NCBI GenBank assembly: GCA_945905925.1
Contig: CAMDQN010000026.1
Span: 1 to 55,860 of the forward strand
From: Singulisphaera sp. GP187
GTDB taxonomy: Bacteria > Planctomycetota > Planctomycetia > Gemmatales > Gemmataceae
Length of the DNA stretch: 55,860 nt
Direction: 5' to 3'
Below are positions 495 through 10,250 of this stretch, piece by piece (within the stretch, counting starts at the first letter, position 1; each line of letters starts with the position of its first letter). A program made the position numbers and the translations under genes. The notes beneath the pieces are model-generated. The model was not told where the DNA came from. It ran no database searches and was given only the letters and a program-made list of their open reading frames with translations.

Positions 495-495
495 G
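490..495. other. attL core (ATCATG) at left element end
   Basis: ATCATG here matches the hexamer at 9379-9384. Host sequence lies to the left (isomerase codons) and element sequence to the right. Element-side ACGTTT at 502-507 is the inverted partner of AAACGT at 9363-9368; in the circular form they lie 22 nt apart with the symmetry centre at the AT of ATCATG, as expected for a serine-recombinase attP. The exact crossover dinucleotide cannot be fixed because the six bases are identical. Confidence 0.75.
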
Positions 496-865
496 GTATT
501 TACGTTTCGGTAGCACAATCCATTTGCTCAAAAACGCACTCGGAACGCATCGCGAGCCGTAAACAGACCTAACCCGGTTTGGAGTGCCGTTTGGCCCTCC
601 TATGGACGCCTGCGCAACGGGAAAGGGCATCGAAGTAAGAACCCGTGAGACAAAGAAGAGAGGACAGAAAAGCCGCTCCCAGAGAAGACCCGAACTCCCC
701 GCCGTCAACCGCTAATCTGTACTACACAGATGAGGGAAGTGATTTGTGCATATGCACAAAAATGGAACCGAGTTCAACGACACGTCGTTGACGGGTGCCG
801 GCGGTTGATGGCATGCGACGCGGCGAACCTGTTGCCACTTGACGATGGGACGCTTCCCGAACCTG
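496..865. other. Gene-free left end of the element
   Basis: About 370 bases between attL and the stop of the DUF4282 gene carry no supportable gene; the long minus-strand frame that crosses attL has no recognisable content. The stretch holds palindrome copy 1 (743-760), small inverted repeats ATCTGT/ACAGAT (715-720 and 726-731) and CAACGAC/GTCGTTG (775-781 and 784-790), and a purine-rich run near 640-690. In the circular form this region lies directly upstream of the recombinase gene and could carry its promoter. Confidence 0.5.
743..760. repeat. Element palindrome, copy 1
   Basis: TTTGTGCATATGCACAAA is an 18-bp perfect palindrome. It lies about 105 nt beyond the stop codon of the zinc-ribbon DUF4282 gene and is the copy nearest the left element end. 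Confidence 0.85.
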
Positions 866-1402
866 TCAGCGGCGGTACCGAGTGCGGTCGTTCGCTTCTT
901 TCAACTCGTCGTGAATTTTGAAGAAGATGATGAGCAACTCGCAGTAGATGCGAACCATAAGCGGGCCAACTGTCGCGATCACGAGGCCCATTGCGAGCAG
1001 TGGAACCGATGGCTTCTTCTGCCCCGCCCCGCCCGCGTCGAAACTCTCCACGACCGTTCGCCCGCCGAACCCTATGCACCCGATCACGCCCAGCCAGAAG
1101 ACGATTTGGATGACCAGCGGAGTGATCATCCAGCGGAATGTCAGGAAGTCGCCAAGCGGGTTGGTAGGGGGGCGGCGAGACCCTTGACGCGGGCGCGAGG
1201 CGGGTTCGTCCGGCTCGTCCCCGTCGCTTTCGCCGTCGAAATCGAAGGCCTCCGGCTTAGAGGCGGGCGTCCGCCGCGCTGCCCCCGGCGGAGCGGGCGA
1301 CGGGACCGGGTTACGGCAGTGGGGGCACGAGTACGCCGCGGCGGTCGGCGGGTCGGGCAGCGTGACGGACTTCCCACATGCGGGACAGGCGACGGTGGGC
1401 AT
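866..1402 (-). CDS. Zinc-ribbon DUF4282 membrane protein
   Basis: The 178-residue product starts with a zinc ribbon made of two CxxC pairs (CPAC near residue 6 and CPHC near residue 26), followed by a Pro/Ala/acidic linker to about residue 80. The C-terminal half resembles DUF4282: a DFLTFRWMITP entry motif, two hydrophobic membrane segments, then a charged IHDELKEAND tail. DUF4282 proteins are small bacterial membrane proteins without a firm biochemical role. It is the last gene of the element's leftward operon, after the S49 protease and a palindrome copy, where accessory genes often sit. It is not a virion-type protein and may be cargo. The start at 1402 places the first CxxC at the usual distance from the N terminus. 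Confidence 0.75.
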   Translation of the reverse strand: MPTVACPACGKSVTLPDPPTAAAYSCPHCRNPVPSPAPPGAARRTPASKPEAFDFDGESDGDEPDEPASRPRQGSRRPPTNPLGDFLTFRWMITPLVIQIVFWLGVIGCIGFGGRTVVESFDAGGAGQKKPSVPLLAMGLVIATVGPLMVRIYCELLIIFFKIHDELKEANDRTRYRR

Positions 1403-1495
1403 GGGCGCTCCGGTGTGAGTGAGCGGACGCGGGAGAATGTATCCCTCTCACGGAGAGCGGCAACACGGCATTTCACAGACGGTCGGGCGCGGCGG

Positions 1496-1515
1496 TTTTG
1501 TGCATATGCACAAAA
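1496..1515. repeat. Element palindrome, copy 2
   Basis: A perfect 20-bp TTTTGTGCATATGCACAAAA, 12 nt beyond the stop of the S49 protease gene (TGA at 1530-1528 on the minus strand). It separates that gene from the DUF4282 gene. Confidence 0.92.
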
Positions 1516-1527
1516 TCGGGGAGCGCT

Positions 1528-2403
1528 TCAACGGGCGGACTTCCGGTTCGCGTCTCGAATCACGTCTTCGAGTGTCGCGATTCGGTCCACCATACGGGCC
1601 GTAAGTGCGGCGTTCGCCAAGAGCATTCGCCCCTGTCCGAAATCCCGTTCGACCGTTGCCGAGCGGATGCCGCGGCCCTTCGCAACGGCGTCCGTGAACA
1701 TCGCACCGTAGGCGTTGCACTGGCTCTTGAGGTATGCGATACCTTCGGCCGTCACCGGGGTTTGCGGCCACCCTTCCGCCTTGAACGGGCTTGCGTCGTT
1801 TGGAATGAGTTGATCCTTGACGCCTTCCCGTTCGAGTGCCTTCGTTTCGTCCACGTTGCGCATCAACACACCGATGCATCCGACCGCGCCCGCGGGAGTG
1901 ACGACGACTTCCCCGCACTGGCTCGCGTACCAGTACGCAGCGCTTGCCGCGACGTGATTCGCGACCGCGATTGTCGGCTTCACCTTGCCCACGGCAGCAA
2001 CCTTGTCCGCGGCTTCGGGCATCCCGTAAACGGTTCCGCCCGGTGAGTCGATGTCGTAAACGATGCTCGCAACTTGCCTGTCCGCAACGGCCGCATCCGT
2101 CGCGCGGCCGATTGCTTCGTGCGAGGTGAACCCGAACAACTCATCGAACACACTCGCACGCGGCATGATCGAACCGCCGACGCGGATTATCGCCACGTTC
2201 CCAACGAGGACATAGCCGCGGTCGGCATCGCTCGCGCGCGGGGAACCGCGGAACGAGACGGGGCCGCGGTCCCGGTACGCGGACAGAATGCCGAACAGCG
2301 CGACCGGGGTGATCGCCCACGGCGTATTGCCGATGTCGGCCAGAACGTGAGACGTGTTCACCGGTGCGGTTCCTTCAACGGGGTTCGTCGCGGTCGGGTT
2401 CAC
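1528..2403 (-). CDS. S49-family (SppA/prohead) serine protease
   Basis: The product has 291 residues from a GTG start at 2403 whose GTGA overlaps the stop of the upstream peptidase gene, implying translational coupling. It has the S49/ClpP-like fold signatures: IVYDIDSPGG, then ANHVAASAAYWYAS carrying the likely catalytic serine, then a GCIGVLM motif. Phage proteases of this family process prohead proteins, and the size fits the family. The first 50 residues lack a signal peptide, which favours a capsid-type role over a membrane signal-peptide peptidase. A longer open frame runs upstream to 3147 but that part is low-complexity and antisense-like, so I reject it. No capsid or portal gene accompanies it, which is odd for this family. 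Confidence 0.85.
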   Translation of the reverse strand: MNPTATNPVEGTAPVNTSHVLADIGNTPWAITPVALFGILSAYRDRGPVSFRGSPRASDADRGYVLVGNVAIIRVGGSIMPRASVFDELFGFTSHEAIGRATDAAVADRQVASIVYDIDSPGGTVYGMPEAADKVAAVGKVKPTIAVANHVAASAAYWYASQCGEVVVTPAGAVGCIGVLMRNVDETKALEREGVKDQLIPNDASPFKAEGWPQTPVTAEGIAYLKSQCNAYGAMFTDAVAKGRGIRSATVERDFGQGRMLLANAALTARMVDRIATLEDVIRDANRKSAR

Positions 2404-3005
2404 AGGCTCGCGCGGTACACGGCTTCGGCTTCGGGGCCGTCGATGAACCCGCGGGCCGCGAGGACGTTCGCGATCCGCCCGATTGCGGTTCGGTGAAGGC
2501 TCACGAGCCGTTCGGCTTCGGCGCGTGCGTCGGCCCGCGCCGCCGCGCGCAAGTTCAGTGCGAAGAGGTTTTCCATATCCCCGGCCGCGTCCCCGTTCGC
2601 GAACGGGCAATCGCCGTCGCCGAACAGCAGTTGCGCCAGCGGGCCGCAGTAGATCACCGTCGCGCGGTCGTGAACGCTCCCCGTCCCGAAACTCTCCGCG
2701 TACCCGTCCCGGCGGGTCACCACCCCGCGGACGACGCGCCCGCCCGTCGCGAGCGCACCCACGATGTGACCGGATTCGTGAAGGCAAACGCTCCACTTGT
2801 AATCGCCGGTGTTCGGCGCGGGTAAGGGTTCGGGACGCGCAACGCTCGGGGCCGGTTTCGGAACGGGGTTCGGTGCGGGTGATGCGGTCGCGCCGGGTAG
2901 TGCGCGCGTCGCCGTCACGGACAGTTTCCCGTCGAGAGGCAACCCGAGCGCGTCGGCCAACCCCTGATAGTATTCCGTGCGTTGCTTGCGACTTTCGGGG
3001 AACAC
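2400..3005 (-). CDS. HExxH-type putative metallopeptidase
   Basis: The product has 201 residues. A short N-terminal part with peptidoglycan-binding-like wording (YYQGLADALGLPLDGKLSVTATRAL) is followed by a Pro/Ala-rich linker. A C-terminal domain near residue 75 carries CLHESGHIVGAL, an HExxH zinc site, and later a CGPLAQLLFG helix and a GDMENL segment. This arrangement resembles the M41/FtsH-like peptidase core, without the AAA domain. Proteins of this kind occur in phage and planctomycete genomes, often unnamed. It lies 77 nt after the unknown helical gene and its stop overlaps the GTG start of the S49 protease, so two protease-type proteins are co-translated. Substrate unknown. Confidence 0.6.
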   Translation of the reverse strand: MFPESRKQRTEYYQGLADALGLPLDGKLSVTATRALPGATASPAPNPVPKPAPSVARPEPLPAPNTGDYKWSVCLHESGHIVGALATGGRVVRGVVTRRDGYAESFGTGSVHDRATVIYCGPLAQLLFGDGDCPFANGDAAGDMENLFALNLRAAARADARAEAERLVSLHRTAIGRIANVLAARGFIDGPEAEAVYRASL

Positions 3006-3082
3006 GTTCGACCCTCACAGGCGCGGAGAAGGGGAAGGGGAAAGGCGGGCGCGTCACGCGCCCGCCCGGGATCAACGGCGGT

Positions 3083-3718
3083 TCACGCCGCGTACTTCTT
3101 GCGCAACTCCGCGGCTTCGGATTCCGACACGGCCCCAGAGAACACAAGCCCTTCGAGCAACCGCACCGGGTCGAGTTGCGCGTCGAGAAGGCGAACCGGT
3201 AAGTGCATCCCCGAGTTGGGGCCGATGAGCAAATCCGCCATGTCGATCTGCGTCTGAAGCCGCGTCAACTCGCGAAGGGCTTTCGCCGCGACGAGCAACT
3301 TTTCCCCGGCGTCACGAACCGCGGGGCCGAACGCCTCTTTGAACACCCGGCGCGCGTGTTCGTTGAGCGCGACCTTCTTGGCCTTCGCCTCTTCCGCGTC
3401 GAGAAGCGACACGGCTTTCGCGACCACGGTTTCGCGCGTGGAGAGGGCGCGAAGCTTTTCGGCCGTGGCCCGCTGACGCTCGGCCCGCGCGCCGTCCCCG
3501 CCCGCCAAGATGCGCGCCTCAACGTCTTCGCTGCTCAGCGCGCCCGCACTCGCCCCGAATTCCGCGGCCAGTTCCGCGGCCACGGTTTCCCGCTCCGCGG
3601 TCACTTGGGCGAGTTCCGCCGACAGTTTCGCGCGCCGTGCCAGAACGTCGGCGTAGGGCGCGTGATCGGTGAGTTCGGGGATGCGCGGCGGTTGCTGAGA
3701 AGTCTTGGAACCGAACAT
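3083..3718 (-). CDS. Unknown helical element protein downstream of the small terminase
   Basis: The product has 211 residues and is strongly helical, with a coiled-coil-like region from about residue 28 to 110 rich in Ala, Glu, Arg and Leu (for example LARRAKLSAELAQVTAERETV). A second helical part follows, ending with LVFSGAVSESEAAELRKKYA. No catalytic motif or membrane segment is visible. A GAGG-type ribosome site lies 7 nt before the ATG at 3718. The gene sits between small terminase and the two proteases, the position of head or packaging genes in phages, so a scaffold-like or packaging accessory role is possible. That is inference from position only. Confidence 0.6.
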   Translation of the reverse strand: MFGSKTSQQPPRIPELTDHAPYADVLARRAKLSAELAQVTAERETVAAELAAEFGASAGALSSEDVEARILAGGDGARAERQRATAEKLRALSTRETVVAKAVSLLDAEEAKAKKVALNEHARRVFKEAFGPAVRDAGEKLLVAAKALRELTRLQTQIDMADLLIGPNSGMHLPVRLLDAQLDPVRLLEGLVFSGAVSESEAAELRKKYAA

Positions 3719-3839
3719 GATGTAACCTCGTTAGTGAAGGAAACCGGGCGAACCAAAACAGAAGACCGAAGAAGCCTTGAAGCGAAGAAAGACAGAAAAC
3801 CAAAGCCACCCAAAACCCAAGCCGAAGACAGGGACCGCG

Positions 3840-3859
3840 TTTTGTGCATATGCACAAAA
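3840..3859. repeat. Element palindrome, copy 3
   Basis: A perfect TTTTGTGCATATGCACAAAA that begins directly after the TGA stop (3862-3860) of the small terminase gene, with no base between. About 120 bp of purine-rich (plus strand) noncoding DNA separates it from the next gene. Confidence 0.92.
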
Positions 3860-4423
3860 TCACCCGCCCGCGTTCTCGTCGCCTTCGACGCCGTGAATCG
3901 ACAGGCGAATGGGGCCGTTCAGCCCGTTGAGGGCAGAACGCGACTTGCCGCCCGGCGCGCGGTCCGTCGTCGTCGGCTTGACCCCTTTCACCCTGTTGCG
4001 GTCAACCGGCGTGATACCCAACAGGGTTGCGCATCTCATCGCGTCGGCCAAACTCTCTCGCGCGATCCTGTACCAGCGCGACGGGGTGTCCTTTTCGGTG
4101 CCCTTCTCGCCCCCCGCGCTCGCGGCCTTGCGCTTCGAGAACAAGCCCTCTTCGTGAAGCTTCGCCGTCGCCAAGAGGTAGGTGCCGTAAGAACTGGCGT
4201 ACATCGTCAGCACACCCGCATCGGCCGCGGTCAAGTGCCCCGGCGCGACAGATTCAATAACCCGCGTCCACTCGGCGCGCCCGTACTCGTCCAAGCAATC
4301 CGGCGGTTCGGTCGGGATCGGCGGAAGGTCGTTGTTCGCCCCGCGCAGGTGCGCGTGACGCGCTTTTCGGAACGTGCCCTTCTCTTCGAGTTCGGTCAGT
4401 GGCTTCGGTTTTCGACCACGCAT
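3860..4423 (-). CDS. P27-family phage terminase small subunit
   Basis: The 187-residue product opens with MRGRKPKP and then shows the P27 layout: a Pro-rich PPIPTEPP stretch, LDEYGRAEWTRV, GHLTAADAGVLTMYASSY, and a C-terminal LLGITPVDRNRVKG block. P27 small terminases recognise phage DNA and recruit the large subunit for headful packaging in cos/pac-type phages. No large terminase is encoded in the element, although it normally follows directly. That pattern is known from satellites that divert a helper phage's packaging motor, and also from decayed prophages. The gene heads the leftward late-type operon; a terminator-like hairpin lies about 80 nt upstream, and palindrome copy 3 abuts its stop. 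Confidence 0.88.
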   Translation of the reverse strand: MRGRKPKPLTELEEKGTFRKARHAHLRGANNDLPPIPTEPPDCLDEYGRAEWTRVIESVAPGHLTAADAGVLTMYASSYGTYLLATAKLHEEGLFSKRKAASAGGEKGTEKDTPSRWYRIARESLADAMRCATLLGITPVDRNRVKGVKPTTTDRAPGGKSRSALNGLNGPIRLSIHGVEGDENAGG

Positions 4424-4485
4424 TTCAAGTTCTCCAAAAACGGCTGAAAAATGTGATTACCGGGCGGGTCGGTCGCACACCTTTT

Positions 4486-4515
4486 GGGAAAAAGTCAAAA
4501 ACCCCCTTGGGGGTC
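4486..4515 (-). terminator. Rho-independent-like terminator after the early-type genes
   Basis: Read on the minus strand, ACCCCC and GGGGGT flank a two-base centre (stem 4501-4514), followed by TTTTGACTTTTT. It would end transcripts coming from the winged-helix gene, whose stop is at 4757, before the terminase gene begins at 4423. Confidence 0.55.
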
Positions 4516-4628
4516 AATCCTTCATTAGAGTGACGGTTGCGGCCCCGTTCGCTCACCGTTCGCCACGGGTCGCAACCGCCGCGTGTCGTCTGCGTCCCCT
4601 TGTCACCCCTGCGCCCCTAACCCGATGC

Positions 4629-4650
4629 GAGTGACAGCCCGTTGTCACTC
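4629..4650. promoter_or_regulatory. Inverted repeat, possible operator or hairpin
   Basis: GAGTGACA (4629-4636) and TGTCACTC (4643-4650) are perfect 8-bp arms around a 6-nt centre. The repeat lies in the spacer between the winged-helix gene and small terminase, a plausible place for a regulator of the packaging-type operon. Confidence 0.4.
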
Positions 4651-4756
4651 TGTTGCTTTTGTCTTTGGGGTGAATTTCTCTTTTGTCTTTCTTCCTCTCG
4701 GGGCCGTCTTCTCTTGGGTCGCGCTTTCTAAGACTGGTACACAGTTTTGCCCCGCC

Positions 4757-5167
4757 TTAGCTCGTTCGCGGCAACCCCAAGTAGAGGTATTCGGAAGCCC
4801 GGTCCACCAACCGCCCGCCCGCCAAAGGCTTCCCCGTCTCGTCATTGCGGCACGGTCGGCCTACCCACACACGTTCGATCACGCCTTGCGCGGCCAACTG
4901 TTGAAGCCAGCGGAACGCCGTTTGTTGCGGCTTGCCGATCAACATTCCCAGAGACACACTTCCGAGAAAGAACCGCGTACCCGCGCGCCCGTCGCAGAGG
5001 CAGTGAATCAGTTTGGCGAGCATCCTGAGTTTCTCCCTGTTGTTGCCGCGGACACCTTCCAAACCCGGGGGATCGGGAATCAACTCGCACCGTCGCCACG
5101 CGGTCAGCAACCCCGCGTCCGGTGTCCGTGTGGCCTTGCGGTGTCCGCGCGCTGCGGCACCGCTCAT
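4757..5167 (-). CDS. Winged-helix DNA-binding protein
   Basis: The product has 136 residues. The segment LGMLIGKPQQTAFRWLQQLAAQGVIERVWVG near residues 75-105 reads as a winged helix: recognition helix with Q-T-A-x-R, then the wing strand. The C-terminal part, ending ASEYLYLGL, is typical of small phage or plasmid replication/regulatory proteins. Its ATG overlaps the stop of the ParB-like frame (ATGA, 5167-5164), so the two are probably coupled. It is the last gene before the terminator at 4486-4515. It is a candidate binder for one of the palindromes in the element; a replication role is also possible. Confidence 0.6.
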   Translation of the reverse strand: MSGAAARGHRKATRTPDAGLLTAWRRCELIPDPPGLEGVRGNNREKLRMLAKLIHCLCDGRAGTRFFLGSVSLGMLIGKPQQTAFRWLQQLAAQGVIERVWVGRPCRNDETGKPLAGGRLVDRASEYLYLGLPRTS

Positions 5168-6333
5168 TTCTTCTCACCTCCCTTGTTGCGCTTCTTCTCA
5201 TCTGCCCGCCGTTGGGCGTACCGGGACAGGATGCCACCGCTCTTAATGCCGAACTGGTACGCGGCGGTACGCTTGTTCGCGCGTCCCTTTTCCGCGGCCA
5301 ACTTGATGAGGTAGGGGAAGCCGCTGAGTTGCACGAAGCACGGCACCCAAACGCCACCGGTGCCGGGTACGTCAACGGCCTCGTCGTCGCTCTGATCGGC
5401 CCGCTTCCAGCGCACCGCGCCCGCAACGTCGCTCAGGAGGTAACAGAGGTTCTTTGCCGCGTCGTCGTCGCCCCTCAGTTCGGACGTGACTTCCGCGGTC
5501 AGTTGGACAACCTTGTTGGCGAGCGCAACGTACCGGTGCGGTGTCGGTTCTTCGAGTGCGGGAGGATTTTGTGCATATGCACAGATTTCGTCGGGGCCGC
5601 GTCCGGGGGGTTCGGCTTCTGATCCCGCGCGGCCCTTTCCTCGTCCCCCTGAAGCGCCAGACAGACCACCGTGTGAAGCGCCGACATCCGGTTCGCCCGC
5701 CACCGGTTCCCCGCCTTGCGTTCCAGAACCGCCAGTTCCCAAAGCGCCTTCACCAGAACCCCCCGCAGGGTCAGTCTCTCCAAATCGTCCTTGCTCACGT
5801 TCGCCTCCCGGCTGAAGTGTCCCATTTGGGACACTTGGCTTTTTGTCAGTCTGATTTTCGCGTGATGATTTTGCATCACCCGGCGAAAGGTCGCGTGCGA
5901 CCGTACTCTTTCCCACGCCGATCAAGCCCGCAATCTCTCGCACGCTGTACCCGCGCTCGCGGAGCAAATTCACCCACGCGCGCCGTTCGTCGGTGGTTAG
6001 GTGCCGTCGGAGCAAGTTGAGCGAAGCAACTTCGCCCGGTATCGCGTCCTCGGTCGGGTTGACCGGTTCGTATTCCGGCTCGATACCCGCGATGCGGCAA
6101 GCAAGCTCGCGGTTGCGGCCGTCGAGAATGCGGCCGTCGGGAAGCCGCTGGATTTTGTGCTTAAGGCCGATCTCGCCAATGTCCGCGGCGAGCGCGTCAA
6201 TTTCGTCCTCGCGCATCCACCGGAGCGCGTCCGCAACTGGGTGGGCTTGCGAAATCACATAGATAGCGCCGCGGTGTTCGTGTTCGCGCGTCGGTTCGTC
6301 GCGCATCCCCGGCAGTGCGTTCGGGTCGAACAT
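5164..6333 (-). CDS. ParB-like DNA-binding protein (long open frame, middle part doubtful)
   Basis: The frame is open for 389 residues. Residues about 25-110 form a ParB/sulfiredoxin-like domain (EIDALAADIGEIGLKHKIQ, then RILDGRNRELAC); residues about 115-150 carry a helix-turn-helix (RGYSVREIAGLIGVGKSTVARDL). ParB and KorB relatives bind repeated palindromes for partition or gene control. Residues about 160-255 are Gly/Pro-rich and have poor third-position GC (8 of 20 codons by hand count at 5701-5760), while another frame there looks coding, so this part may not be translated as shown. The C-terminal part (from about 5560 leftwards) again has coding-type GC3 (16 of 20 at 5461-5520) and is probably a real domain or a separate gene. 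Palindrome copy 4 lies at that junction. Confidence 0.65.
   Translation of the reverse strand: MFDPNALPGMRDEPTREHEHRGAIYVISQAHPVADALRWMREDEIDALAADIGEIGLKHKIQRLPDGRILDGRNRELACRIAGIEPEYEPVNPTEDAIPGEVASLNLLRRHLTTDERRAWVNLLRERGYSVREIAGLIGVGKSTVARDLSPGDAKSSRENQTDKKPSVPNGTLQPGGEREQGRFGETDPAGGSGEGALGTGGSGTQGGEPVAGEPDVGASHGGLSGASGGRGKGRAGSEAEPPGRGPDEICAYAQNPPALEEPTPHRYVALANKVVQLTAEVTSELRGDDDAAKNLCYLLSDVAGAVRWKRADQSDDEAVDVPGTGGVWVPCFVQLSGFPYLIKLAAEKGRANKRTAAYQFGIKSGGILSRYAQRRADEKKRNKGGEKK
5499..5879 (-). CDS. Candidate overlapping gene inside the ParB-like frame
   Basis: A 126-codon frame begins with ATGATG at 5879. Between about 5840 and 5590 it gives normal protein sequence (for example KDDLERLTLRGVLVKALWEL and MSALHTVVCLALQGDEE) with high GC in third positions (14 of 19 codons by hand count near 5701-5760), whereas the ParB frame there gives Gly-rich low complexity. 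This suggests the true coding frame switches here, either as a separate overlapping gene or through old compensating frameshifts. Its last third, after palindrome copy 4, is poor, so the functional end may be close to the palindrome. No known family recognised. Confidence 0.45.
   Translation of the reverse strand: MMQNHHAKIRLTKSQVSQMGHFSREANVSKDDLERLTLRGVLVKALWELAVLERKAGNRWRANRMSALHTVVCLALQGDEERAARDQKPNPPDAAPTKSVHMHKILPHSKNRHRTGTLRSPTRLSN
5567..5586. repeat. Element palindrome, copy 4
   Basis: TTTTGTGCATATGCACAGAT matches the consensus except near its right edge. It lies at the border between the apparent coding frame of 5499-5879 and the C-terminal coding part of the ParB-like frame, so it again marks the end of a coding segment. 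Confidence 0.8.
5815..5836. promoter_or_regulatory. 22-bp palindrome inside coding sequence
   Basis: AAGTGTCCCA and TGGGACACTT are perfect 10-bp arms around TT. It lies about 45 nt inside the candidate overlapping gene, just after the ParB-like helix-turn-helix. The symmetry suggests an autoregulatory or partition binding site, different in sequence from the six-copy palindrome. Confidence 0.5.
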
Positions 6334-6335
6334 TA

Positions 6336-6635
6336 CTAGCCCCTCCCCTTCTGACGGGAGAGGCGAACGACCGTTACAGACGGTAACGGCACCAGCACCA
6401 CATCGAAGCCCGCACGCGCCGCGGCCCCTATGAACGCTTTGCCCGCAGGGGTGCCGTTGCGAATTGCGAGTTCAAGGGCGGAACCCTTGCCAAGCTCGAT
6501 TTCGATACCGTTGGGTGCGTCCCCAATGTGCCGCACGCCGTCATATAGGCCGGTGTCTTCGAGCAAATCAAATAGGTATAAGCCGTCTCTAGACCCGCTA
6601 TTGATTTCTGATATCAAGCCTGATATACTTTCCAT
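6336..6635 (-). CDS. Small unknown element protein (99 aa)
   Basis: A 99-residue protein without a recognised family. It begins MESISGLISEINSGS, has an acidic middle (LEDTGLYDGV, GIEIELGKG) and an alanine-rich helix followed by beta-like VVLVPLPSVTVVRL. It has no membrane segment. It ends two bases before the ParB-like start, so the two are likely co-transcribed. A 64-nt hairpin ends 13 nt upstream of its ATG, and an AGGA ribosome site lies between. Confidence 0.5.
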   Translation of the reverse strand: MESISGLISEINSGSRDGLYLFDLLEDTGLYDGVRHIGDAPNGIEIELGKGSALELAIRNGTPAGKAFIGAAARAGFDVVLVPLPSVTVVRLSRQKGRG

Positions 6636-6648
6636 GTTGGTCCTCAGT

Positions 6649-6712
6649 AGCGGCAGCGGATTGGGAAGAGGTTAGGCGCTAACCAAACGCCTCTTCCCGG
6701 TTCGCTGCCGCT
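6649..6712 (-). promoter_or_regulatory. Strong hairpin in the leader of the 99-aa gene
   Basis: Outer arms AGCGGCAGCG (6649-6658) and CGCTGCCGCT (6703-6712) and inner arms GGGAAGAGG (6663-6671) and CCTCTTCCC (6690-6698) are perfect. It lies between the 68-aa and 99-aa genes, directly before the ribosome site of the latter. It lacks a T-run, so attenuation or mRNA stability control is as likely as termination. Confidence 0.5.
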
Positions 6713-6760
6713 TCGCTATTTGAATCCGTCCCAATCGTTCAATAACTCTCCCGAACCCGC

Positions 6761-6967
6761 TTATTCCGCCTTCCCCAAATTTGTGCATATGAACAAAACG
6801 GGTGGGGCTTTCGTCACATCGAGCGTGGCGGGTTCGCTTTCGAGTAGCCGCGCGGCCCACTGCCTTACGGCCGCGTCCTCGTCTCGTGTGAGTTCCAAAA
6901 TCAACGCGCCAAGTAACTCCGCGGGTTGCGTATCCCGCGACGTAAGCGGCGTTGATTCGTTACGCAC
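6761..6967 (-). CDS. Small unknown element protein (68 aa) with palindrome in its 3' end
   Basis: A 68-residue frame from a GTG start that overlaps the TAA of the upstream HTH gene by 8 bases (GTGCGTAA), indicating coupling. The body is helical (LLGALILELTRDEDAAVRQWAARLLESEP). The last dozen codons are encoded by palindrome copy 5, so the C terminus is probably not conserved in function. No family recognised. Confidence 0.5.
   Translation of the reverse strand: MRNESTPLTSRDTQPAELLGALILELTRDEDAAVRQWAARLLESEPATLDVTKAPPVLFICTNLGKAE
6779..6798. repeat. Element palindrome, copy 5
   Basis: ATTTGTGCATATGAACAAAA differs from the consensus at the left edge and by C to A in the right arm. It lies within the last codons of the 68-aa gene. 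Confidence 0.8.
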
Positions 6968-7193
6968 GCGGGGCTTCCTTCTCGTCGTTGAGTTCGCTGA
7001 TAAAGCGGTCGATTTCGGCGTGCGACACGAACAGCCGCTTCCCGATCTTTACCAGCTTCAATTTCGCAACGGTGCCGTCAGGCTTCGGGGTTCCTTTCAC
7101 GGCAAACCGCCGGAATGCCGCGGGGTTAATGCTCGCGGTCATCGGGTTTTCCCGCATAGCCTTCGCGATGGGTTGCAGAACTTCGCGGTTCAT
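6960..7193 (-). CDS. Excisionase/DUF1580-like small HTH protein
   Basis: From the ATG at 7193 (GAGGG ribosome site upstream) the product has 77 residues. The pattern NPAAFRRFAVKGTP, KLKLVKIGKRLFVSHAEIDRFISEL is that of small MerR/AlpA-type proteins, close to DUF1580 of planctomycetes: a helix, a short basic loop, a beta hairpin with a VGKRLFVS-like strand, then an EIDRF helix. Such proteins act as recombination directionality factors or local regulators. It is the first gene of the early-type operon, with about 400 bp of noncoding DNA upstream including a 17-bp palindrome at 7312-7328. A longer frame to 7304 exists but lacks supporting features. Confidence 0.6.
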   Translation of the reverse strand: MNREVLQPIAKAMRENPMTASINPAAFRRFAVKGTPKPDGTVAKLKLVKIGKRLFVSHAEIDRFISELNDEKEAPRA

Positions 7194-7311
7194 CTTCCGC
7201 CCTCGTTGTTGTCGTTGGCGATGGGTGTTAAATTCGCCACAACCACGATATGCGGAAATGTGAGGTGTTGATATGAGCGTTGCCAAATTATTGACGTAAC
7301 CCATTGGTATA

Positions 7312-7328
7312 TGATAGGTTACCTATCA
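7312..7328. promoter_or_regulatory. Operator-like palindrome upstream of the HTH gene
   Basis: TGATAGGT and ACCTATCA are perfect 8-bp arms around a single T. It lies about 120 bp before the ATG of the small HTH gene, a typical place for self-regulation. Its sequence is unrelated to the six-copy palindrome. Confidence 0.55.
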
Positions 7329-7563
7329 GGTACACAACGGGATAGGCTCGCCCGAAACGGCCATATTGCGATTGCCTCAATTCGTTATGCGGACAGGGTT
7401 TATGTATTTGACGTGAGCCGACAGGTTATGAGCGGTTGCGAACGGGTCAGGATCGGCAATCTACATATCGCAGAGTTGAGGCATTTTTGAGCGGTCAAGA
7501 TTTGTTGAGCGATACCCATAATTAGACACTTGGTTAGGTTCGTTCAGTATTCGGAAGCGACAA

Positions 7564-7587
7564 CGCCCCGGGGTTTATTCCGGGGCG
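7564..7587 (-). terminator. GC hairpin downstream of the recombinase
   Basis: CGCCCCGG (7564-7571) and CCGGGGCG (7580-7587) are perfect 8-bp arms with an 8-nt loop, about 40 nt after the recombinase stop. There is no clear T-run, so it may be a weak terminator or an mRNA 3'-end stabiliser. Confidence 0.5.
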
Positions 7588-7602
7588 CGTATAGCTCGGG
7601 GC

Positions 7603-7622
7603 TTCTGTGCATATGCACAAAA
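7603..7622. repeat. Element palindrome, copy 6
   Basis: TTCTGTGCATATGCACAAAA has one mismatch to the consensus and begins directly after the TGA stop of the recombinase (7625-7623), the same arrangement as at the terminase gene. Confidence 0.88.
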
Positions 7623-9320
7623 TCATTTGCGGGCGGCGTCCAACTTGGCGAGTGCTTTCGTTATCCCCTTCTCAAGTTTCGCCGCTTGTGTGCGGTCGGA
7701 AAAGTCGAGTTCCGGCAACGTCGCGCTCCCGAAAGACGCAACGGACCAATCCCCCTTGCGACCGCGGCGCGCGGGCCGGTAGTCAATGAGGTAATCCCGG
7801 GTCGCGCCCCCCGCGAACCGGATTTGCACCGCGGCCGAACGGCCCGACGAACGCGGCACGGTCAACACCCACACGGCTTCTATCGTGTCCCTGAGGAGTT
7901 GCCGAAGCCGCAACCGGGTCGGTTCGTCGCTCGCCGCGTCAATGAGCGTCCGGGCTTCGGAAAGGGCCGCGGCCTTCGGGTGTTTCTCTGTTACGCGGGC
8001 TTCGGCCAGTTTGCGCGAGAGGGCCGCGTGCGCCGCTTCCTTCTCGCGAAGCCGTTTGAGAACCGCGGGGGAATCCCCGTTCTCTTCTAGGTCGGTAGTT
8101 AGCGCGTCCATCGACAACTTGACGCGGGCGAGGTCCGCCGCGAGTGTGGCCGATTCGCCTTCCGGTTCACTCCCCAACACGTCCGCGGGGTTGATTTCTT
8201 GCAACCGGGAAAGAACCGCGGCTTCAAACACGTCGAGAGGGAAACTGATACTCTTCCCGCGGCCTTCCATGCTGCCCGCGGGCACAATTACGCGGCGCTT
8301 CTGACGGTTCTTACCGGTGCCGCGGGACTGATTCGCAACGAGCATCTTTTCGCCCGTCGCCGCGCTCATCAGTAACCCCGAGAAGAGCGCAACGGCCTTC
8401 TGCCCGATCCGCCCCGGCTTGCCCTTGCGCGTGCCGATGGCGACTTGCGCACGGTCCCAAGTGTCGGCATCGACAACCGCGGGGTAATAGCCCGGGATCG
8501 GCTCGCCGTTCGGCTCGTCGTCTTTCATCGGCTGATACTCGCCCAGAACGCTACGGCCGGTCAGAATCTTATGAACGTATGCCTTGCTCCACGCTTCCGC
8601 GCGGCCCCACGGCTTCACCCCTTTGTCGGCCAAGTCTCGCACGATAAGCGACAGCCCGTAACCCGCGGTCGCGAGCCTGAACATTTCGCGGACTAGCTTT
8701 GCACGCGCCGGTACGAGGTGAACTTTTCCGCCCATGACCTTCGCGCGGCCGTTGGGCATCTTCGCGATGTGCGAGCCGCGAACTTCCAACCACCCGGGAA
8801 GCCGCGTTGTCACGCGCTCGCCGGTGTCCCGGGCTTGCCGCTGCCGTTCTCCCCACACCGCGGACATGCGCGTTGCTTTCGTCTTGCTCTCGTCGTGCCC
8901 TCGCGCTTGGCTCATCTGGCCGCGGAAGAGGGAGAACAGGTCGGAGTCTTCGGTGAGTTCGATTTCGTCGGGGGCGAGTTGCACCACGCGCACGCCGGAC
9001 AGGAGAAGCCCCGTCAGGACGTTCACCCCGACAACCGGCTTCTCGCGGGAAAGGCGGTCCATGTTCTCGATTAGTAACACCGAGTCGCGCGGGATGTGCC
9101 CCTGTTCGACCGCATCGAGAAACCGCCGGAGCATCCCCGATTCGCGGTGCTTGCCCCGGAACCCGGACGTGCCCCGATCTTCGTAGGTCGTTTGCGTGTC
9201 GAGTGTGGCCTTGTTCCGCTCGCACCAAGCGCGGGCGAGCGCGGTCTGTCGGCGGATGGAATCGCCGTCGGATTGCTGAGGGGATGAGTAGCGGTTGTAA
9301 CTGTAAGCGATGCGCGCCAT
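7623..9320 (-). CDS. Large serine recombinase (integrase)
   Basis: From the ATG at 9320 the product has 565 residues (a start at 9359 is also open). Near the N terminus, YSYNRYSSPQQSDGDSIRRQ carries the catalytic serine and the SIxxQ motif of the resolvase/invertase catalytic domain; DRLSRE follows near residue 95. Then come the recombinase domain (YVHKILTGRSVLGEYQP, GYYPAVVDADTWDRAQ) and a long coiled-coil-bearing C-terminal part (about residues 390-470). The usual zinc-ribbon cysteines between these are not evident. Such enzymes integrate DNA at short attB sites and need a small directionality factor to excise. The gene starts close to attR, so in the integrated state the nearest upstream promoter may be that of the host isomerase gene. 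Confidence 0.93.
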   Translation of the reverse strand: MARIAYSYNRYSSPQQSDGDSIRRQTALARAWCERNKATLDTQTTYEDRGTSGFRGKHRESGMLRRFLDAVEQGHIPRDSVLLIENMDRLSREKPVVGVNVLTGLLLSGVRVVQLAPDEIELTEDSDLFSLFRGQMSQARGHDESKTKATRMSAVWGERQRQARDTGERVTTRLPGWLEVRGSHIAKMPNGRAKVMGGKVHLVPARAKLVREMFRLATAGYGLSLIVRDLADKGVKPWGRAEAWSKAYVHKILTGRSVLGEYQPMKDDEPNGEPIPGYYPAVVDADTWDRAQVAIGTRKGKPGRIGQKAVALFSGLLMSAATGEKMLVANQSRGTGKNRQKRRVIVPAGSMEGRGKSISFPLDVFEAAVLSRLQEINPADVLGSEPEGESATLAADLARVKLSMDALTTDLEENGDSPAVLKRLREKEAAHAALSRKLAEARVTEKHPKAAALSEARTLIDAASDEPTRLRLRQLLRDTIEAVWVLTVPRSSGRSAAVQIRFAGGATRDYLIDYRPARRGRKGDWSVASFGSATLPELDFSDRTQAAKLEKGITKALAKLDAARK

Positions 9321-9378
9321 GTTCCGGGTTCCGTCGAGTTCGGGAACCCAATTAGACACCCAAAACGTCTACCTGTCA

Positions 9379-9384
9379 ATCATG
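9379..9384. other. attR core (ATCATG) at right element end
   Basis: The hexamer repeats that at 490-495. Rejoining host sequence across it gives ACATCATGATGT, a 12-bp perfect palindrome, in the inferred empty attB site. Element-side AAACGT at 9363-9368 is the inverted partner of the left-end ACGTTT. Confidence 0.75.
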
Positions 9385-10082
9385 ATGTTGCCGGTGTCGA
9401 AGTGGACCCGTACGCGGTCGCTCTTGAACGAGTCCACGAAGTCGTTCATCTCACCAGGAGTCATCAGGTAGCCGTTGAAGAAGATGTTCTCGATGTTGAG
9501 GTACACCTTCAGTTTCTCGGCCGCCGGGATCAGCTTGCGGATCGCTTCCTTCGCGCGCTTGTCGCACACGTCGTTCGGCACCGGTTCGTGATCGGTGCGC
9601 CACGGGATGTGAACCGCGCCCGGCACGACCAGCACGTTCTCAGTGCCCAACTCCGCGGCGCACTCCGCGATTTTTCCGGCCAACTCCAAGCCGCGAGCGC
9701 GCTTGGCTGCGTCGTTGCTCGTGAGCGGGTACGGCCAGAACAGGAACGAACACATGCCGCTGATCGCGATGCCGATCTTCTCCGCGGTGCGCCTTATTTG
9801 TGCGAACTCCTTCGGGCCGGACTTCGGCGACAGGTCGCTGTCGAGGTCGTAGTTGAGTTCGATGCCGTCGAAGCCCGCGTCCTTCGCGAGCCGCAGGCAC
9901 TGTTCGAGTGTCATCTTCTCCGGGTACGGGAACGCCCAGAGGTTGATCGACTTCTTGAACGCGTACTTCTTGCGTGGCACCGGCTTGTCGCCGGGTTTGG
10001 GCTGAGCCGAGACGGTCGAACCGCCGAGCAACGCGGCGGAAGTGGCGAGAAGTTCGCGGCGGTCGGGATACGGACCGGACAT
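9379..10082 (-). pseudogene. 5' fragment of Tat-exported sugar phosphate isomerase/epimerase
   Basis: From the ATG at 10082 the fragment has a Tat-type signal (DRRELLATSAALLGG, then AxA-like TVSAQP) and the first two-thirds of a TIM barrel: INLWAFPY, GFDGIELNYD, metal-ligand-like ELNYD and NIENIFFNGYL, HFDTGN. This matches xylose-isomerase-like/hydroxypyruvate-isomerase-like proteins common in planctomycetes. The frame runs across attR and stops 8 codons later (TAG at 9369). Joined to 210-494 it gives 327 residues without a gap. An intact promoter region remains upstream and could now read into the recombinase gene. Confidence 0.9.
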
Positions 10083-10156
10083 AGCGTGGAACTCCGAGTG
10101 AATAGAGGAAGGTTCCACGCCATCATCCGCGCTGCGCACCGGTTTGCAACAGGTTG

Positions 10157-10250
10157 GGTCTTTCAAAGTAGGAGGCACATGCCGTATTCCGTCGCTTCAC
10201 GCAGAGGAGAAGCGACGGCACATGGCATGTGCCTCCTACTTTGAAAGACC
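10157..10250. repeat. 94-nt inverted repeat with 27-bp perfect arms
   Basis: Outer arms at 10157-10183 and 10224-10250 are perfect 27-mers; inner arms CCGTCGCTTC (10189-10198) and GAAGCGACGG (10209-10218) extend the hairpin. It begins 4 nt after the stop of the cyclase/SGNH gene. The CTACTTTGAA end recurs in the repeat at 12010-12105. Confidence 0.85.

Follow-up and report, generated by a model that had tools for sequence, protein, structure and literature searches.

A 20-bp palindrome, TTTTGTGCATATGCACAAAA, was found in six copies within an integrated element of about 8.9 kb in the genome of Singulisphaera sp. GP187, and at no other place in that genome. The element occupies positions 495–9374 of the stretch that was analysed, the first 55,860 nt of contig CAMDQN010000026.1 (assembly GCA_945905925.1), which is called the window below. 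The copies lie mostly at gene boundaries, and the same layout, built from other palindromes, recurs in related elements of the genus and in unrelated phages. Our preferred explanation, held with a little less than even confidence, is that a dimeric protein encoded by the element uses the palindromes as its operators and so keeps the element silent or insulated, much as stoperators work, but with symmetric sites.

A preliminary description of this DNA, made from the letters alone, had pointed out the repeat, and its observation proved to be real and stronger than it had claimed. Each of the six copies carried at most two mismatches, 100 shuffles gave no match and a scan of the window that allowed up to six mismatches in 20 positions revealed no further place. 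When the whole 6.47-Mb genome (251 contigs) was searched with up to three mismatches, the same six places were recovered and no others, with no match for the reversed-pattern control. The motif density of the host chromosome was therefore not equal to that of the element. The palindrome is dyad-symmetric in its consensus, including the centre.

Copy 1 (ATTTGTGCATATGCACAAAA, 742–761, one mismatch) lies 104 nt past the end of the gene for a 178-aa protein; its start had been given as 743. Copy 2 (1496–1515, exact consensus) begins 12 nt past the stop codon of the S49 protease gene, with the next start 93 nt further on. Copy 3 (3840–3859, exact consensus) directly abuts (0 nt) the TGA stop of the gene for the terminase small subunit (TerS), the next start being 121 nt away. 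Copy 4 (TTTTGTGCATATGCACAGAT, 5567–5586, two mismatches) is located within a ParB-like gene, in the linker between its helix-turn-helix (HTH) part and its C-terminal domain. Copy 5 (ATTTGTGCATATGAACAAAA, 6779–6798, two mismatches) occupies the last codons of a 68-aa open reading frame (ORF; 6761–6967). Copy 6 (TTCTGTGCATATGCACAAAA, 7603–7622, one mismatch) also abuts a TGA stop (0 nt), that of the recombinase gene, and the next called start lies 409 nt on.

The placements given in the preliminary description for the two copies directly after TGA, for those at 1496 and 6779 and for the one about 105 nt beyond a gene were thus confirmed. Its general statement that the copies sit at gene ends held for three of the six in a strict sense, and for four if the copy in the last codons is included; the remaining two, at 742 and 5567, lie well beyond a gene and inside one. 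A border between reading frames had been suspected at 5567, but the ParB frame stays open there and its C-terminal part aligns with relatives. Neither did GA before and TC after most copies extend the symmetry: on the + strand, TC follows three of the six, GA precedes one and no copy has both. At 3840 and 7603, the adjoining TC belongs to the TGA stop as it appears on the opposite strand.

Outside this genome, an 18-mer of the palindrome was present in no viral contig scanned and, with up to one mismatch, in none of 58 other relatives. The 14-mer occurred as single copies in two of 396 other genomes of the class and in 86 viral stretches, one of which was an array (L306, described below). In genome contigs it was present in at least 116 stretches; among the 80 listed, all were single except one pair (L182), a result that excludes nothing.

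Arrays in related elements and unrelated phages

The nearest relatives of the element were two loci, L037 and L040, both in one genome of the same genus (G012). L037 encodes relatives of the ParB-like protein (54% over residues 1–146), of a winged-helix protein (69%), of a DUF1580-like protein (40%) and of TerS (33%), whereas in L040 relatives of the ParB-like protein, TerS and the 211-aa and 201-aa proteins were detected (29–37%), together with a weak DUF1580-like match. TerS, DUF1580-like and ParB-like genes are therefore common to all three elements. Absence of the motif from related elements with the same genes, which the preliminary description had named as a result that would speak against its proposal, was not what was found, as each of the two bears an array of its own. 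In the stretch of L037 that was examined, the palindrome TTTTGTACGG-N-CCGTACAAAA (TTTTGTACRG-N-CCGTACAAAA) occurs three times with up to two mismatches. Across G012, TTTGTAC-N5-GTACAAA gave six matches, of which five were exact and all within 19.2 kb and the sixth, with one mismatch, lay elsewhere; the reversed control gave one. The palindrome of L040, TTTTRTTCAA-N-TTGAAYAAAA, is present in five copies within 10 kb, and five of the seven matches to TTTRTTCAA-N-TTGAAYAAA in G012 fall within these 10 kb (control, none). The remaining two palindromes of this type, at G012:C1:6238008 and 6250164, are 12 kb apart and perhaps belong to another element with the same motif. Both arrays have a 1-nt centre and are missed by tests for even-centred dyads or for four exact copies.

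The outer arms TTTTGT/ACAAAA are common to the motifs of the window, L037 and L040, one position being either G or A in L040; the inner bases differ. A palindrome follows the TerS stop in all three elements, at 0, 0 and 5 nt, respectively, and L040, like the window, has a copy inside its ParB-like gene. The HTHs of the three ParB-like proteins are related but diverged, and the motifs are likewise related but diverged. Conserved outer arms and a conserved place behind terS, combined with changed inner bases, point to a drift of binding specificity. Four of the eight sites of L037 and L040 were near a gene 3′ end (0.4 expected) and none near a start (0.4 expected), in a comparison where the motifs had first been noticed at gene ends.

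Larger prophages of the genus use a palindrome with the core GGTCGCGCGACC. A viral record of 47.6 kb (G303) contains 52 copies with up to two mismatches (control, none), and 43 of the 44 GGTCGCGCGACC matches in the genome G001 fall in one stretch of 48.6 kb; as their site spacing is identical, the two were taken as the same element and counted once. More arrays with this core were detected in G004, G005, G007 and G013. Two further elements of G012 hold 15 of the 16 matches to GTGGTCGCGCGACCAC (up to one mismatch) in that genome, so that G012 alone holds elements with three different motifs, and the contigs of G014 gave 24 matches to CCGGTCGCGCGACCGG. These counts have to be read against a chance background, since reversed patterns of the GGTCGCGCGACC type also occur in these G+C-rich genomes (five in G012, eight in G014 and 11 in G001). 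At least one YGGTCGCGCGACCR was present in 31 of 95 genomes of the family. No report of planctomycete phages with such arrays appeared among the open-licence papers listed by literature searches.

Some features of the GGTCGCGCGACC arrays were recorded separately. Among 20 inexact copies in G303 (L395, L396 and L397), 12 deviate in the right arm only (+ strand), three in the left only and five in both (two-sided binomial, 0.035), a weak and only possible polarity of the sites that was not used as evidence. The integrases of two elements carry the core in frame and at the same place, WSRDQ (L405 10699–10714 and L410 7557–7572). In six of the G003 contigs listed (C4, C40, C194, C201, C210 and C211), the same core lies at base 72–73, which would suit the terminus of a repeated element at which the assembly broke.

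Arrays were also sought around ParB-like genes, for which 57 distinct places with matches were found outside the window and 52 were examined. With even dyads, three of the 52 loci had seven or more copies and the rest no more than four, while 20 control loci had no more than three. When centres of 0–4 nt were allowed, clear arrays were observed at L037 (three copies), L038, L040, L043 and L064, and ten more loci, mostly G+C-rich, had three to five copies; five of the 20 controls then had three or four, none of them near gene ends. At one of these ten loci (L041), a dyad of the GCGCCGGTGAGTGCCGGCGC type is present in three copies, all three near called gene ends, and is perhaps another array. 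At L043 2521–2590, divergent genes are separated by an inverted repeat that encloses two palindromes and may be a control region or an origin. The even-dyad test on 269 loci of at least 3 kb yielded clear arrays in L306 and in the pieces of G303, and four or five weak copies in five high-G+C loci. L306 is a viral contig of 41% G+C with GroEL-like and anti-restriction genes, in which GTGTGCATATGCACAC occurs five times with up to three mismatches. Two of its palindromes (449–464 and 2519–2534) abut stop codons, and an apparent separate hairpin follows each within about 20 nt. Neither L306 nor the Cluster O mycobacteriophage Firecracker, which carries 34 copies of a palindromic repeat, shares any compared gene with the window element; both have the same layout with other palindromes.

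The position of the sites was then related to the genes. A site was counted at a gene end if it lay no further than 25 nt inside or 20 nt outside the 3′ boundary of a gene, and the numbers expected near ends and near starts were obtained from random positions in the same stretch. Genes of the window were placed by hand from the ORF list, those of L306 were six hand-picked leftward ORFs and, Firecracker apart, all others came from a codon-usage caller. A first set was drawn from the window, from six loci and from G303 (three pieces); of its 93 copies, 42 were near a 3′ end (5.3 expected) and 22 near a start (5.5 expected). In Firecracker, 19 of the 34 copies lie within annotated genes, 14 are near a gene end (2.9 expected) and six near a start (2.9 expected).

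A second count was restricted to spacers between tandem genes and compared with uniform placement in the same spacer, sparing the 12 nt before the start, which guards against tight packing forcing contact with the stop. Across six groups, 35 of 59 sites were no more than 3 nt from the stop, compared to 15.6 expected. The individual values (expected numbers in parentheses) were two of three in the window (0.09), two of two in L306 (0.28), six of 14 in Firecracker (2.61), 17 of 24 in G303 (9.84), three of nine in L038 with L064 (1.32) and five of seven in G014 (1.47). The two stop-abutting sites of the window have 121 and 409 nt of free spacer, and its spacer sites lie 93–409 nt from the next start. 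In G303, a site was present in 16 of 18 tandem spacers of 20–60 nt, in six of nine of 61–150 nt, in two of five longer ones and in none of 15 shorter ones.

That most G303 junctions with room hold a site counts against the idea that the palindromes are recombination linkers between modules, or a short self-spreading repeat, with no regulatory role. Their position between genes would suit linkers, and apparent deletions between repeats are described for Cluster O genomes (PMC4351075). Nevertheless, similarity past the palindrome edges is small (65–87% to the reference across 31 nt for the other copies, and 89% across 28 nt between copies 2 and 5, in inverted orientation), and the place behind terS is kept while the motif changes, which recombination linkers would not need. 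This explanation is consequently regarded as highly improbable.

Candidate binders and competing explanations

In the operator explanation, the dispersed palindromes would all be bound by a single protein that acts as a dimer and is most likely encoded by the element, and whose specificity would have drifted between related elements. Each element would plant its own motif at gene boundaries, most often right after the stop codon, and in linkers or tails where coding permits. The bound protein, mostly away from the next start, would most likely block or insulate transcription through the element and so keep it silent. The preliminary description had likewise proposed a single binder; confinement, a symmetry like that of dimer sites, gene-boundary siting and recurrence of the layout speak for that proposal, whereas the binding itself, the origin of the binder in the element and an effect on transcription are inferences.

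The leading candidate is the protein of the ParB/Noc superfamily encoded at 5164–6333 (minus strand), with a ParB-type domain, an HTH and a variable C-terminal domain. A profile of six such sequences matched Spo0J (5.2e-16), Noc (1.8e-9) and KorB (0.033), and the window protein gave an HTH_38 match in Pfam (2.2e-7). Residues GxxRxxA and N..R, which we take to be cytidine triphosphate (CTP) motifs, are invariant in the six sequences. A structure prediction of the protein alone was too poor for use (mean predicted local distance difference test score, pLDDT, 40.8). ParB-like genes are present in the window and in all 11 other array elements long enough to be judged (L037, L038, L040, L043, L064, L111, G303, G004, G005, G007 and G013), as well as in Firecracker. 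In six of those 11 elements the protein is of a second type, whose sole match to a solved structure was sulfiredoxin (6.6e-6) and which we take to be ParB-like by fold class, its similarity being otherwise weak.

These data also bear on a different explanation, in which the sites load the ParB/Noc protein of the element as a CTP clamp that spreads or slides, giving KorB-like repression at a distance or a maintenance complex, and gene boundaries are merely harmless places for them. The profile matches, the invariant residues and the near-constant presence of a ParB-like gene would all agree with it, as would the parallel divergence of HTHs and motifs in the window, L037 and L040, the single HTH type common to six GGTCGCGCGACC elements and the fact that in the window, L040 and G303 the ParB-like gene itself contains sites. 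On the other hand, the GGTCGCGCGACC core is paired with other HTHs in L038, L043 and L111, the second type of protein matches only sulfiredoxin, and most of the 52 ParB-like loci have no clear array, in tests that can miss weak ones. With the same caveat, no array was seen in phi16 (48.0 of 58.2 kb), vB_MseS-P1 or Rivra, all of which carry ParB-like proteins. Moreover, L109, L110 and L409, which are contig pieces, have no recognised ParB-like gene, nor was one recognised in L306, where the search covered two proteins. A ParA ATPase, expected beside ParB in a parABS system, was not matched by Pfam among ten window proteins. On balance, we consider this explanation doubtful.

TerS and the DUF1580-like protein are possible binders as well. 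TerS is a DNA-binding protein that the window, L037 and L040 all encode, each of them with a palindrome behind terS. Binding by TerS or by a host protein, or a role of the sites as marks for packaging, uptake or replication, could also agree with the spread of the G303 sites over structural and early genes. In contrast, host chromosomes are nearly without sites, three motifs in one genome (G012) speak against a single host binder and dispersed sites would be unusual for packaging, so that we give these possibilities very little credence. Elements with the GGTCGCGCGACC core repeatedly encode sigma-70-like, 70-aa HTH_17/MerR-like and ribbon-helix-helix-like proteins, which were discarded as candidates, as none was recognised in the window element; one of four ribbon-helix-helix-like proteins scanned had a weak match to such a family. 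The sigma-70-like protein was located at L038 5944–6498, L064 13941–14492, L397 287–850, L406 8992–9546, L410 16179–16793, L407 19251–19874 and L411 12505–13176.

The abutment of the palindromes on stop codons, and the 8-bp stem with 4-nt loop that they could form, would also be expected of RNA hairpins at the 3′ end of cistrons, acting in termination, processing or protection of the mRNA. However, the loops are symmetric in consensus, and among 31 broken pairs on the gene-sense strand of G303, L038 and L064 (where some L038 and L064 copies are orthologous), 13 were A-C, 10 other and eight G-U, so that 23 of the 31 were not G-U. A terminator scan of the window gave 11 terminator-like sites, a number at chance level, and none of the 11 overlaps a palindrome. 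The G+C-rich hairpin followed by a T run of an intrinsic terminator was not seen at the window palindromes, and an Rfam search gave no match. Copies between divergent genes are a further difficulty for a role at cistron ends. Because the broken pairs are mostly not G-U, no terminator or Rfam match was found and the centres are symmetric, a DNA dyad that would be read by a dimer is favoured, and RNA hairpins are considered very unlikely.

Several results weigh against the operator explanation. At the same codons of a homologous gene start, the palindrome found in G303 (L395 17762–17824, arms of 13) gives way in G007 to another perfect dyad, of 24 bp and another sequence (L405 19428–19490, arms of 12), so that a fold and not a sequence might be kept, which is what compensatory change in an RNA would yield; L038 and L064 have a shorter dyad at those codons, with arms of 7. 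In 3000 random 75-mers, arms of at least 12 appeared in 27 and arms of at least 7 in 333. Gene-end placement was weaker in a second set of sites, with six of 31 near ends (1.6 expected) and two of 31 near starts (1.7 expected). Other sites lie between divergent genes or deep within genes, including five in the 4.1-kb portal gene of G303, and these could reflect a marking of the whole element just as readily as a role at gene ends. Four sites in the five longest Firecracker spacers lie 25–33 nt from the next start and are not tied to the stop, and a pure stop rule is also contradicted by two G303 sites near starts in long spacers. In addition, the type of HTH goes with the motif in some elements and not in others, as the GGTCGCGCGACC core of L038, L043 and L111 indicates, and the promoter scan was at chance level. 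Finally, the authors of the Cluster O report judged it unlikely that the repeats act in transcription, and they did not succeed in obtaining stable lysogens (PMC4351075).

Gene content of the element

The element is inserted in a gene which we take, from its sequence, to encode a sugar isomerase-like protein. The two halves of this gene (210–494 and 9369–10178) are split by the element and join at a common CATGAT that is carried by both flanks, where the exact crossover probably took place.

All genes of the element were placed on the minus strand. The recombinase gene (7623–9359) encodes a large serine recombinase or integrase (Pfam Recombinase, 2e-13; PHROG 95 integrase, 1.8e-62). It is followed by the gene for a small winged-helix protein (6960–7193), presumably DUF1580-like, a label used in the preliminary description, which gave no significant match in Pfam and NCBIfam scans and is 40% and 29% identical to ORFs of L037 and L040, respectively. 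The 68-aa ORF with copy 5 is of uncertain reality, as the codon-model caller did not call it. Between this ORF and the gene for a 99-aa protein (6336–6635; no match in Pfam, PHROG or NCBIfam), an inverted repeat was noted at 6649–6712, with arms of 23 nt (87%) and a gap of 18 nt. Within the ParB-like gene, an ORF of 126 aa (5499–5879, minus strand) overlaps in another frame and has a protein-like composition, but the relatives support the ParB frame and not this ORF; the terminator scan also listed a strong dyad, AAGTGTCCCATTTGGGACACTT, at 5815–5836.

The 136-aa winged-helix-like protein (4757–5167), with a weak HTH_Crp_2 match, is the one whose L037 relative is 69% identical. TerS (3860–4423) matched Terminase_4 of Pfam (1e-12) and PHROG 83 (9.6e-22). 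The 211-aa protein (3083–3718; no assigned family) and the 201-aa protein (2400–3005; weak similarity to M50B peptidases) have L040 relatives at 37% and 29%, respectively. A perfect dyad at 3044–3066 (11-bp arms, 1-nt centre), after the stop of the 211-aa gene, is single, differs from the palindrome and is perhaps a terminator stem. The S49 peptidase or head maturation protease (1528–2361) was identified by Pfam (4.3e-26) and PHROG 53 (2.3e-63), both with 1528–2445 as query, and the 178-aa protein (866–1402) has a zinc-ribbon-like start, judged from its sequence, with no match in PHROG or NCBIfam. No capsid, portal, large terminase or other head or tail gene was seen among the scanned element proteins. 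Because TerS and a head protease are present and capsid, portal and large terminase were not seen, the element looks like a phage satellite or remnant.

Comparison with known systems

The likeness is closest to the Cluster O mycobacteriophages Corndog and Firecracker, for which a 2015 report describes a 17-bp repeat, TGTTCGGNNNCCGAACA, of unknown function, present in about 34 copies, often in gene spacers, and absent from the genomes of M. smegmatis and M. tuberculosis (PMC4351075). As in the window, this is a dispersed array of dyads that is absent from the host, enriched at gene boundaries and stop-hugging, in a genome with a ParB-like gene. It differs in its sequence, in its 3-nt centre and in belonging to a phage that is not obviously temperate. 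A stop-codon rule was not found stated in the passages of that report that were consulted.

The stoperators of L5 and other Cluster A phages are element-wide arrays of repressor sites, mostly away from promoters and confined to the phage, at which the bound repressor halts elongation. The window palindromes are confined in the same way and lie away from starts, and may lie away from promoters too. A stoperator has no symmetry, binds a monomer and points in the direction of transcription, whereas the window-type sites are symmetric dyads. In Cluster A, the motifs of related phages differ, and distances between motifs correlate with distances between repressors (PMC6550527).

With KorB, ParB and Noc systems, the element has in common that it is mobile, carries short repeated sites and encodes a protein of the ParB superfamily, as judged by profile. 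In RK2, the OB sites of KorB are found at short or long distances upstream of the promoters that they control (PMC11790492), while in the arrays described here the agreement of HTH and motif is partial and no KorA was identified. Like SPBRE of SP-beta, the palindrome is one repeated prophage motif; SPBRE is a 15-bp motif in promoter regions, where it is bound by a master repressor, MrpR, of tyrosine-recombinase fold (PMC10516654). The window sites are mostly away from the next start (93–409 nt for those in spacers), and no MrpR-like protein was seen in the Pfam scan of ten window proteins, no search aimed at MrpR having been made. The start-associated sequences of Cluster K are conserved repeats at gene boundaries too, but they are start-side and asymmetric, with 13 bp typically placed 3–7 bp before start codons (PMC3203893).

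A broader proposal, which we consider rather unlikely, is that all these palindromes belong to a class of control arrays in phages and satellites that has so far gone unrecognised, in which each element places its own palindrome behind stop codons and one dimeric protein shuts down or insulates every gene unit. If so, an array of this class would have up to nearly one site per gene junction with room, and its motif would drift like immunity specificity while the places stay. The rule would hold, with unrelated motifs, across elements of one bacterial genus, in a metagenomic phage of unidentified kind and in a mycobacteriophage of Cluster O, whose repeats it would account for. Several prophages of one genus, one of them with 52 copies, show the same layout although their palindromes differ, and three small related elements show it with drifting motifs; this turns the Cluster O curiosity into a testable rule, and the window, L037 and L040 are suited to a swap of specificity, having the same place behind terS, the same gene types and different inner bases. 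Were the array a repressor system, it would be the symmetric counterpart of stoperators. The arrays resemble stoperators in logic and KorB/ParB sites in anatomy, and are best filed with dispersed phage operator arrays, nearest to the repeats of Cluster O.

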